Source of the DNA: Salarchaeum japonicum
GTDB lineage: Archaea > Halobacteriota > Halobacteria > Halobacteriales > Halobacteriaceae
Length of the DNA stretch: 64,000 bases
NCBI RefSeq assembly: GCF_020614395.1
Contig: NZ_CP085324.1
Location: forward strand, 1,803,564-1,867,563
Direction of reading: 5' to 3'
The notes under the pieces were generated by a model, which searched no databases, was not told the origin of the DNA, and saw only the letters and a program-made list of their open reading frames with translations. Shown in pieces: positions 42,096 through 47,271 of this stretch. Each line of letters begins with the position of its first letter. Within the stretch, counting starts at the first letter, position 1. The position numbers and the translations under genes were made by a program.

Positions 42096-42608
42096 ATGAC
42101 GCGCGGGTTCTACATCGGCCGATTCCAGCCGTACCACGAGGGCCACCATCGCGTCGTCGAAGCCATCTCCGACGAAGTGGACGAACTCGTCGTCGGCGTC
42201 GGAAGCGGCGACAAATCCCACAGCACGCGCAACCCCTTCACGGCGGGCGAGCGCGTGATGATGATAACGAAAGCGCTCGTGGACGTGGACGTCGTCACGT
42301 ACGTCGTCCCCATCGAGGACATCAACCGGAACGCCGTCTGGGTGAGCCACGTCCAGTCCATGACCCCGAAGTTCGACGTGGCGTACTCCAACAACCCCCT
42401 CGTCATCCGGCTGTTCGGCGAGGCCGGCGTCGAAGTCCGCCAGTCCCCGATGTTCGAACGCGACGTGCTGGAGGGAACCGAAATCCGCAACCGAATGGTG
42501 CAGGACGAGGACTGGCGCGAACTCGTCCCCGACCCCGTCGCCGGCGTCATCGACGAAATCGACGGCATCGAACGCATCCGCCAAGTCAGCGACACCGACG
42601 CCGGATAG
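42096..42608 (+). CDS. nadM: Nicotinamide-nucleotide adenylyltransferase, archaeal type
   Basis: The reaction is NMN + ATP to NAD + pyrophosphate. It has 170 residues. The nucleotidyltransferase motif is GFYIGRFQPYHEGHHRVV, with the (H/T)xGH variant HEGH. The second motif is EGTEIRNRM, in place of bacterial ISSTxxR. VGSGDKSHSTRNPFTAGERV is typical of archaeal NMNATs. It diverges from lonB, and its end is 3 nt from the repeat array upstream of the TRIC gene. Confidence 0.95.
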   Translation: MTRGFYIGRFQPYHEGHHRVVEAISDEVDELVVGVGSGDKSHSTRNPFTAGERVMMITKALVDVDVVTYVVPIEDINRNAVWVSHVQSMTPKFDVAYSNNPLVIRLFGEAGVEVRQSPMFERDVLEGTEIRNRMVQDEDWRELVPDPVAGVIDEIDGIERIRQVSDTDAG

Positions 42609-42611
42609 GAG

Positions 42612-42656
42612 ATGGACGTCTTCGACGTGATGAACAACGTCAGACCGAAGGCCTGA
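42612..42656 (+). CDS. Leader open frame 1 (14 codons)
   Basis: This short frame reads MDVFDVMNNVRPKA and stops within the unit-1 hairpin. Its first eight residues equal those of the downstream channel protein except Asp for Asn at position 2. The ATG lies 3 nt after the nadM stop, so ribosomes finishing nadM could re-initiate here. Translation is not proven; it may be a relic of duplication. Confidence 0.3.
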   Translation: MDVFDVMNNVRPKA

Positions 42657-42665
42657 CTGGCGCAC

Positions 42666-42699
42666 AACACCGAATACCTGCATGGACGTATTCGGTGTT
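42666..42699 (+). promoter_or_regulatory. 11-bp inverted repeat enclosing the second leader ATG
   Basis: AACACCGAATA (42666-42676) and TATTCGGTGTT (42689-42699) are perfectly complementary. The 12-nt loop contains the ATG of leader frame 2 (42682-42684). In RNA this stem would present or hide that start codon. It can coexist with both neighbouring hairpins. Confidence 0.55.
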
Positions 42700-42750
42700 A
42701 TGAACGACGCAAACGCTTCGCGTTTGCTGGCTCATCACGCGAAGACATGA
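42682..42750 (+). CDS. Leader open frame 2 (22 codons), overlapping the TRIC gene start
   Basis: The frame starts MDVFGVMNDANASRLL and runs through the unit-2 hairpin. Its TGA (42748-42750) overlaps the ATG of the channel gene (42747-42749) as ATGA. This is the same coupling arrangement used by trpC/trpB and others in this window. The first residues again copy the channel protein's N-terminus. Its codons are less GC-biased (GTA, GGT, GTT, GCT, CGT) than those of its neighbours. Translation is unproven. Confidence 0.35.
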   Translation: MDVFGVMNDANASRLLAHHAKT

Positions 42751-43355
42751 ACGTCTTCGACGTGATGAACGCGGTCGGGTTGGTCGCGTTCGCGATCGTC
42801 GGCTCTCTCAAGGCGAGCGACGCCGACCTCGACCTGCTCGGAATCGCCGTTCTGGGGTTCTTGACGGCGCTCGGCGGCGGTATCACGCGGGACGTGCTGG
42901 TGGGGCGGACGCCGGCGGCGCTGTCGGGGAGCGGGGACGTGCTGTGGACGTTCGTCGGGGTGCTGGTGGCGCTCGCGCTGGCGGTCGTGGTGGACGAGCG
43001 CGGCCTGCTGGACAGCCCCGCGCTTCTGGTGCCGGACGCGGTGGGGTTAGCGGCGTTCGCGGCGACGGGCGCGCTCGTCGGCGTTTCGGCGGGCGTGTCG
43101 TCGTTCGGGGTGGTGGTGCTCGCGACGTTGACGGGCGTCGGCGGCGGCACCATCAGCGACGTGCTGCTCGACCGCGTGCCGTTCGTCCTCACGGAGGACT
43201 TCTACGCGTCCTGTGCGCTCATCGGCGGCGTCCTGTTCGTTCTCGCCGTGGACGCGGGCGTGGGGCGGCGGACGGCCGCGCTCGCCTGTGCGGGCGTCGT
43301 GTTCGCGCTCCGCCTGCTCGCGGTTCACCGCGAGTGGCGGCTCCCGTCAGTGTAG
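42747..43355 (+). CDS. TRIC/UPF0126-family membrane channel
   Basis: The protein has 202 residues and seven membrane helices in two homologous halves. The duplicated glycine motif is seen as TALGGGITRDVLVGRTP in the first half and TGVGGGTISDVLLDRVP in the second, the signature of prokaryotic TRIC cation channels (YadS/YicG). It starts MNVFDVMNAVGLVAFAIVG. The upstream tandem units copy precisely this N-terminal coding sequence. It overlaps the convergent permease gene by 9 nt. The conducted ion is probably K+ by family; not verified. Confidence 0.92.
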   Translation: MNVFDVMNAVGLVAFAIVGSLKASDADLDLLGIAVLGFLTALGGGITRDVLVGRTPAALSGSGDVLWTFVGVLVALALAVVVDERGLLDSPALLVPDAVGLAAFAATGALVGVSAGVSSFGVVVLATLTGVGGGTISDVLLDRVPFVLTEDFYASCALIGGVLFVLAVDAGVGRRTAALACAGVVFALRLLAVHREWRLPSV

Positions 43356-46399: not shown

Positions 46400-47215
46400 A
46401 TGTTGGAACTCGAACACGGGTTCCGCGTCGTGGACGTCCACGCGCGCCTCCACGCCGGCCCGGAACCCCCGCTCCGGGGGCGGGACGTAGACGCAGAACA
46501 GTTGGAGCGCGAACTCCACCAGGCGGGCGTGGTTCGCGCCGCCGTCTCCCCCGGCGAGCAGGCGGGCGAGCGCGGCTACCTCCGCGCGAACAACGCCGTC
46601 GCCCGGCAGACCGTCGAGCGGCCGTTCGTCGCGCTCGCCCGCATCGACGGCCCCCGCGACCCCGGAACGGACGCCGGCGCGCGCCTCCGCAACCTCCGCG
46701 CGGCGCGCGAGGACTACCACACCGACCCCGACGACGTGGAGCAGTACGCGTACGACGACCGCTTCCACGGGTTCCGCCTCCATCCGCCCCGGGACGGCCT
46801 GCCGGACGAGGAGACCCTGGACGCGCTCGGGGACGCCGGCCTCCCCGTGCTCGTGCACGCGGGCCGCGACTTCCGGCCCGAGACCGTCGCGGACACCCTC
46901 CTCGACCGCGGGTTCCCCGTGATTCTCGGGCACTTCGGCGGCCACCCGCTCGACCGGGACGCGATGACGGACGCCCTCGGCCTCCTCGACCGCTACGACG
47001 ACCTCTACCTCGACACGAGCGCCGTCCGGTACCGCGACATCCTCGAACGCGGCATCACCGAACACCCCGACAGAATCGTGTTCGGGAGCGGCACGCCGAG
47101 CGTCCACCCCGACGTGGCCGTGATGGAGATACTGACGCTCGACGTGCCCGAGGACTTGATGAGTCGCGTGTTCTCGAAGAACCCGGGGCGCGTCATCGAC
47201 GCCCTCAGCGAGTGA
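46400..47215 (+). CDS. Amidohydrolase-family (TIM-barrel metal hydrolase) protein
   Basis: The protein has 271 residues. It starts with a modified metal strand, FRVVDVHARLHAG, where active members have His-X-His; here the pair is HARLH. Later FHGFRLHPPRDG, LPVLVHAGRDFRPE, PVILGHFGGHP and YLDTSAVRYR match the amidohydrolase-2/TatD-like barrel. FGSGTPSVHPDVAVMEIL resembles the catalytic Asp strand, with SGT in place of SDxP. Activity is therefore uncertain. Its last 39 nt are repeated just downstream. Confidence 0.8.
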   Translation: MLELEHGFRVVDVHARLHAGPEPPLRGRDVDAEQLERELHQAGVVRAAVSPGEQAGERGYLRANNAVARQTVERPFVALARIDGPRDPGTDAGARLRNLRAAREDYHTDPDDVEQYAYDDRFHGFRLHPPRDGLPDEETLDALGDAGLPVLVHAGRDFRPETVADTLLDRGFPVILGHFGGHPLDRDAMTDALGLLDRYDDLYLDTSAVRYRDILERGITEHPDRIVFGSGTPSVHPDVAVMEILTLDVPEDLMSRVFSKNPGRVIDALSE

Positions 47216-47271
47216 CGCTCACTCCGGGAGCACAAAACCCGGGCCGCGTCATCGACGCCCTCGGCGAGTAG
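47177..47271 (+). repeat. Tandem duplicate of the amidohydrolase 3' end
   Basis: The last 39 nt of the gene (47177-47215), coding NPGRVIDALSE and stop, recur at 47234-47271. The second copy would read NPGRVIDALGE and stop. The copies differ at only a few bases including the stop (TGA versus TAG), with an 18-nt spacer between them. The second copy ends 1 nt before the stop of the convergent glycosyltransferase. Confidence 0.85.

Follow-up and report, generated by a model that had tools for sequence, protein, structure and literature searches.

The window, that is, the whole 64-kb stretch of DNA analysed here, contains a nadM-type cytidylyltransferase-like gene, a leader region composed of two tandem units immediately downstream of it, and a gene encoding a membrane protein of the TRIC/UPF0126 type (Table 1). 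"TRIC-type" is the label that the original prediction gave to this last gene, whose Pfam family (PF03458) is named 'Gly_transporter', and its channel function is predicted. Gene starts were assigned from the ORFs.

Table 1. Features of the leader region and the genes that flank it (window coordinates).
Feature	Position	Strand	Length	Description
nadM-type cytidylyltransferase-like gene	42096..42608	+	170 aa	ORF; PF01467, E=3e-19; immediately 5' of the leader region
Unit 1	42612-42681		70 nt	5' of the TRIC-type gene at 42747
Leader ORF 1	42612..42656	+		MDVFDVMNNVRPKA, then stop; head 42612-42635 copies the gene start
H1	42639..42657	+		Inner hairpin of unit 1; 8 pairs with one A-C mismatch, 3-nt loop
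H2	42666..42699	+		Unit 1 tail with unit 2 head; 12 bp perfect, 10-nt loop with the leader 2 AUG
Unit 2	42682-42746		65 nt	5' of the TRIC-type gene at 42747
Leader ORF 2	42682..42750	+		MDVFGVMNDANASRLLAHHAKT, then stop; frame and overlap retained in G001
P1	42688..42746	+		Alternative pairing, leader 2 head with unit 2 tail; encloses H3, excludes H4
H3	42709..42727	+		Inner hairpin of unit 2; 8 bp perfect, 3-nt loop; identical in G001
H4	42732..42768	+		15 bp, one bulge, hexaloop ATGAAC with the gene's start codon; identical in G001
TRIC/UPF0126-type membrane protein gene	42747..43355	+	202 aa	ORF; PF03458, E=6e-37

Both units start with a copy of the beginning of the TRIC-type gene, as originally predicted. 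Positions 42607-42633 agree with the gene start, 135 nt away, at 25 of 27 positions, and across 20 Markov-shuffled windows no pair of 27-mers spaced 40-150 nt apart reaches at least 24 matches. The real window holds three further pairs of this kind, of which two fall within coding regions and the third at the end of a gene (47177). The repeats and the hairpins described below are real and exceed chance, and the head of leader 1 is probably the original gene start. In unit 2 the copy-to-copy distance of 65 nt is 2 mod 3, and the TGA of leader 2 (42748-42750) overlaps the ATG of the gene in the sequence ATGA (42747-42750). This overlap, which had also been predicted and which is retained in the same-genus genome G001, is by itself about a one-in-three event, since the TRIC gene begins with ATGA. 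The distance between units 1 and 2 (70 nt) is 1 mod 3 and departs from this spacing class.

The 19-nt stem-loops that had been noticed in both units are present and share an 8+3+8 nt build (H1 and H3). Between the two units, four of the eight inner-stem pairs are altered on both sides with pairing retained, again in agreement with the prediction, and one pair reads A-C in the first unit and C-G in the second. Perfect 8-bp hairpins number 27 in the 64-kb window against 28 expected; the size of H1 and H3 is ordinary, and they are notable solely for their position and co-variation. What had been described as a related spacer after each stem proved to be something else: each unit has a tail that is reverse-complementary to the gene-start copy after it, which produces two hairpins that had been overlooked (H2 and H4). 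H2 is the longest perfect hairpin within the 64 kb, and H4 the longest of the window when at most one defect is allowed. The folding energy of both is not extreme for a GC-rich genome, so the argument rests on position and matching rather than on stability. At three paired sites the head of the gene departs from that of unit 2, and there, as read from the sequence, the tails carry the matching changes. The alternative pairing P1, which corresponds to the P1 helix of the arsC leaders described below, gives a fold of 42683-42747 at -22.0 kcal/mol, compared with -23.3 kcal/mol for H4.

TRIC homologues are present in 63 of the 98 genomes searched. Among the 37 loci examined, start copies occur only in the window genome (G000) and in G001, no comparable copy lies 5' of the 35 other haloarchaeal TRIC genes, and a protein search of genome contigs returned no further close relative. 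In the comparison with relatives that the original prediction had proposed, the sister genome shares the repeats and keeps unit 2, and the 35 other loci are devoid of comparable copies. The suggestion of a young duplication holds, given the restriction to one genus, the copy-free loci and the decay of unit 1 in G001. In that genome the TRIC gene and unit 2 are retained, with H3, H4 and the ATGA overlap identical; H2 keeps 10 of its 12 pairs, one through a double change, and has two broken, H1 has one newly broken pair, and unit 1 is left without an ATG, its first start copy being split by an insertion of ~690 nt. The insertion (L033:3417-4120) carries on the opposite strand an ORF of ~104 aa that resembles a membrane protein.

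Along the TRIC gene the two genomes match only in patches, so that an identical run alone proves little. Leader 2 differs at 4 of 22 codons, three of them non-synonymous, and the leader peptides are not conserved. Selection on structure, which had been argued from the paired changes, is not shown at TRIC between the two species, whose TRIC-specific covariation is weak: one pair is compensated and three are newly broken, a result equalled in 245 of 500 shuffles. An upstream ORF, often of the SAM hydroxide adenosyltransferase type, has its stop overlapped by the TRIC start at 17 of the 34 other haloarchaeal loci; PF01887 is located elsewhere in G000 and G001. Stop/start coupling is thus an arrangement often seen at this gene, and in the window genome leader 2 would re-establish it.

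The same layout occurs at a second locus, which surfaced from scanning sample stretches for duplications at gene borders. The gene, which is unrelated to TRIC and resembles arsenate reductase genes, encodes an arsC-like low-molecular-weight phosphatase (PF01451) and is located behind an SBF/ACR3-type transporter gene. An upstream copy of its opening codons (VAFVCVQN) is present in 16 of 26 Halobacteriaceae genomes belonging to five genera. The copies lie 86, 89, 110 or 113 nt away, all 2 mod 3, and the leader frame ends in the TGA of an (A/G)TGA at the gene start in 15 of the 16 cases and in TGATG in the remaining one. A leader ATG was identified in 13 cases, several of them -8 to +6 nt from the transporter stop, and two genomes (G006 and G015) carry two tandem units. 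The predicted fold consists of P1 (leader head and tail), P2 (an inner hairpin with a 3-nt loop) and P3 (a hairpin around the start codon), and in an alignment of 14 species (A3) these helices are paired in 90.5% of the cells. Covariation supports it: 11 of the 25 pairs, with 21 cells, are altered on both sides, a level reached by none of 500 shuffles, and the pairing signal collapses in controls with slid partners. In P2 double changes affect eight of nine pairs, and RNAalifold predicts an essentially identical fold.

Genomes with a deviating arsC region are also informative. In G021, which has no cassette, the N-terminus of the leader runs directly into the gene, which shows that the leader is the original gene start. 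G001 also lacks the arsC cassette, so the cassette is dispensable. In G022 leader head, leader tail and gene head are altered together. The arsC leader is less diverged than the arsC gene itself, and analysis of dN/dS by frame gave no clear sign of peptide-level selection on the leader tail (0.63, vs 0.70 in one other frame). A differently built case is found at the identical arsC site in G130, a member of another family, with a distance of 131 nt (2 mod 3), an ATGA and an 8+3+8 hairpin 3 nt past CAGAAC; its congener G181 has no cassette. In both G181 and G130 (L291 and L293, respectively), a small ORF before arsC ends in RFQMTTAEAER and a stop, compared with RSQMATAFAER in the arsC codons, and may perhaps be an older start-copy leader.

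TRIC unit 2 and the arsC leaders have in common the order of parts, the hairpin with a 3-nt loop, the frame class and the overlap, and unit 2 has these elements of a start-copy leader, the class proposed here from arsC: the copied first codons, the inner hairpin (of 8-9 bp in this class), the reverse complement of the copy and a start codon in a hairpin loop. A covariance model built from arsC only and run unfiltered over 20 kb ranked TRIC unit 2 first (20.4 bits, E 0.0045, full-length alignment) and TRIC unit 1 third (15.8 bits). Over 1.7 Mb, unrelated matches reach up to 23 bits and the TRIC score would not stand out; the match is support for a targeted question and not of discovery grade. 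At their insertion points TRIC and arsC have 12 of 15 nt in common (for coding pairs in phase, p ~7e-4; p = 0.006 when an AAC codon is required). Background was drawn from 20-kb stretches of eight genomes. TRIC unit 2 and the arsC cassettes of G007 and G015 share the heptamer CTGGCTC, located before the reverse complement of the target. Only TRIC and arsC stood out in a scan of ~2,500 ORFs for start copies, and the pattern GCTCNNCACG..CGTGNNGAACGC, which matches in 39 of 392 genomes, has complementary N positions only at these two genes, by inspection and among the matches listed. A search of the open-access literature found no matching system. The earlier statement that no haloarchaeal system of this form has been described therefore stands within that literature, and the form itself is not unique to TRIC, being present at arsC. 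Judged from these sequence comparisons, the layout looks like a recurring type of leader, coupled by translation and undescribed, and not like a single accident.

The explanation favoured here, at slightly better than even odds (roughly 0.55), is that a start-duplicating hairpin insertion left a leader ORF translationally coupled to its gene, and that tandem cassettes of this kind lie in front of TRIC. A hairpin-bearing insertion after codon 8 (between CGTGATGAAC and GCG) would have duplicated the beginning of the gene; its original start would then survive as a short leader ORF, with the new copy serving as the working start. A ribosome translating leader 2 would run into the gene and stop at the TGA that overlaps the ATG, opening H4, after which immediate reinitiation on the TRIC gene would be possible (termination-reinitiation). 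H4 would conceal the start codon from other ribosomes, and the leader 2 head may compete for the unit 2 tail, with folding into either P1 or H4 before translation. TRIC and arsC cassettes may share the same origin.

Experiments in Haloferax volcanii show strict coupling at overlapping genes, and reinitiation in Haloferax functions over a range of about -8 to +6 nt and is lost at a distance of 22-23 nt (PMC6728339; PMC10666635). The stop codon of the nadM-type gene (TAG, 42606-42608) lies +3 nt from leader 1, and leader 2 and TRIC are -4 nt apart, both within this range; leaders 1 and 2, at +25 nt, fall outside it. By this distance rule nadM could couple to leader 1 and leader 2 to TRIC, and leader 1 could not couple to leader 2. 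Unit 2 would accordingly be the leader in use. Unit 1 would be a copy that is older or has decayed, taken as a relic because leader 1 ends 25 nt before leader 2 and is broken in the sister genome.

Several observations weaken the coupled-leader reading. The TRIC cassette is known from two genomes only, with three non-synonymous changes in leader 2; leader 1 is too distant from leader 2 and has lost its start in G001; and the 1.7-Mb model scores, the lack of clear peptide selection on the arsC tail and the dispensability of the arsC cassette also count against it. The prediction of translational control is upheld in part: a translation-linked leader is supported, mainly by the covariation at arsC, the frame-preserving spacings and the stop/start overlap, and control by ions or osmotic conditions is unsupported. 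A broader proposal, which is tentative and has the odds clearly against it, is that self-repairing start insertions form a haloarchaeal class, in which a hairpin insertion close to the 5' end of a gene copies the start, the old start becomes a leader and the gene becomes dependent on reinitiation under a covarying three-hairpin fold. Such insertions would recur at unrelated genes and in tandem, and could act as an evolvable dial for translation.

The main rival for TRIC remains a mutational scar without function, in which the gene start and its reverse complement were copied through slippage or through template switching primed by a hairpin, and the insertion is tolerated since a new start comes with the copy. 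This is possible, with a probability well short of one half. Two template switches would yield the observed order of start, hairpin, reverse complement of the start and second start, the TRIC cassettes are limited to one genus with unit 1 decaying, and the genome has other duplications at gene borders (the gene end at window position 47177 and the array at the nfo end). The covariation of the stems would on this account stem from quasipalindrome correction or gene conversion, but P2 at arsC has no conversion partner elsewhere and is nevertheless doubly changed in most of its pairs. Persistence of the arsC cassette across five genera, with length changes in multiples of 3, the overlap in 16 of 16 cases and a leader less diverged than its gene, also speaks against a scar, which is therefore less likely for arsC. 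The agreement of the insertion points and the shared CTGGCTC can be read as the trace of a sequence-specific mobile hairpin element that inserts between CGTGNNGAAC and GCG close to the start of genes, bringing its target along or re-creating it, as can the insertion in G130 at the identical arsC site in another family and the restriction of complementary N positions, among the listed matches of the pattern above, to TRIC and arsC. Such an element is unlikely, however, as no conserved body (the inner hairpins vary freely) and no transposase are present, and neither a further unrelated locus in the sampled stretches nor a match in viral contigs was found.

A regulated translational attenuator, in which the choice between P1 and H4 responds to translation of the leader or to a ligand (K+, osmolarity) and so adjusts channel production, would make use of the tail shared by both folds and of their similar energies, and the joint alteration of leader head, tail and gene head at arsC of G022 agrees with it. 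It is nonetheless quite improbable, since there is no Rfam match and no conserved peptide, the cassette at TRIC is confined to a single genus, and no signal-sharing link connects a cation channel with an arsC-like phosphatase. Programmed ribosomal bypassing, in which the ribosome would leap over the insert from the first start copy into the corresponding gene sequence, has precedents in phage T4 gene 60 and yeast mitochondria (among the cases treated in PMC8211752), and a hairpin flanked by direct repeats resembles take-off and landing sites. The start codon with stop overlap in 16 of 16 arsC cases would be needless for bypassing, and the portion consulted of the recoding review (PMC8211752) lists no such archaeal event; this reading is given almost no weight. 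Further candidates were discarded. A riboswitch or known RNA family was rejected as neither TRIC nor arsC gave a relevant Rfam 15 match at the gathering score, and a viral origin as two exact patterns had no match in viral contigs; the junctions are direct repeats that cannot pair mutually, by sequence reasoning incompatible with an archaeal bulge-helix-bulge intron; and the arms, by similar reasoning, misfit the consensus of an integron attC site. A sigma-70/terminator scan of the region, made with a model that is not archaeal, gave nothing useful.

Duplications at the 3' ends of genes were considered as the same phenomenon and rejected, since their spacers differ, and are hence kept apart. 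At window positions 47177-47270 the last ~40 nt of a gene (encoding ...NPGRVIDALSE and the stop) are repeated just past the stop codon in a copy-number-variable 56-nt unit, with two copies in the window and three in G001 (L033:9212-9371). Three 61-nt units lie at the 3' end of an endonuclease-IV-like gene (nfo) at 1.917 Mb of the window genome (L108:16957-17111), each with a hairpin that holds the stop codon in its loop, together with a diverged fourth unit, the stem of which is altered on both sides; the array is largely missing from the matching G001 locus. Ends of protein genes are also duplicated downstream in G001 (L121:13244, L140:5764, L139:4305), in G007 (L156:4541) and in the window genome (L097:2332, L109:2673), several at exactly 101-103 nt, and the three G001 cases have related spacers (e.g., CCTGG.GGA.TCTGCAAGGGCGA.CGAGCG). 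These protein-gene duplications resemble a repeat family with its insertion sites at the ends of genes. Incomplete copies of the 3' ends of tRNAs are located ~96-130 nt 3' of tRNA genes in the window genome (L093:13754, L101:17985), G007 (L158:17636) and G059 (L176:8958), and an array of 42-46 nt units with the core GAGAGTACGTTTCGTCTGTC occurs in G007 (L157:1777-2281), with a related pair in G001 (L135:9761).

If the coupled-leader reading is right, one local event that copies a start would place a gene under translational coupling with neither a new gene nor a new promoter. The two loci would then offer a testable case for the origin of leader ORFs and start-codon hairpins in archaea, in which translational regulation is little known, and arsC provides a structure with real covariation support that can be used for tests in a laboratory haloarchaeon.

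The ermC and cat leaders of bacteria are translational attenuators with leader peptides. They resemble the TRIC leader in having a short leader ORF, alternative hairpins and a sequestered gene start region; by contrast, the TRIC leader is archaeal, is built from the first codons of its own gene, ends in a stop that overlaps the start, occurs in tandem units and has no known inducer. Coupling by a structure over a downstream start is similar in that the ribosome on the upstream ORF unfolds it, but the hairpin arm at TRIC is the reverse complement of the gene start within the insertion, and for Haloferax it is considered unlikely that ribosomes initiate de novo at internal sites (PMC6728339). 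The byps of yeast mitochondria, as outlined in a review (PMC8211752), are likewise short hairpin inserts in coding sequence that the host gene tolerates, whereas the TRIC and arsC repeats measure 20-30 nt and a new, putatively coupled start codon takes the place of a bypass. Closest in layout are the haloarchaeal termination-reinitiation pairs (PMC10666635), which share the overlap of leader stop and gene start (ATGA, GTGA or TGATG) and whose strong distance dependence accounts for coupling being possible for unit 2 and not for unit 1. Here, however, the upstream ORF is a short copy of the start of the downstream gene rather than a gene, and the downstream start codon is enclosed in a hairpin, which covaries at arsC.
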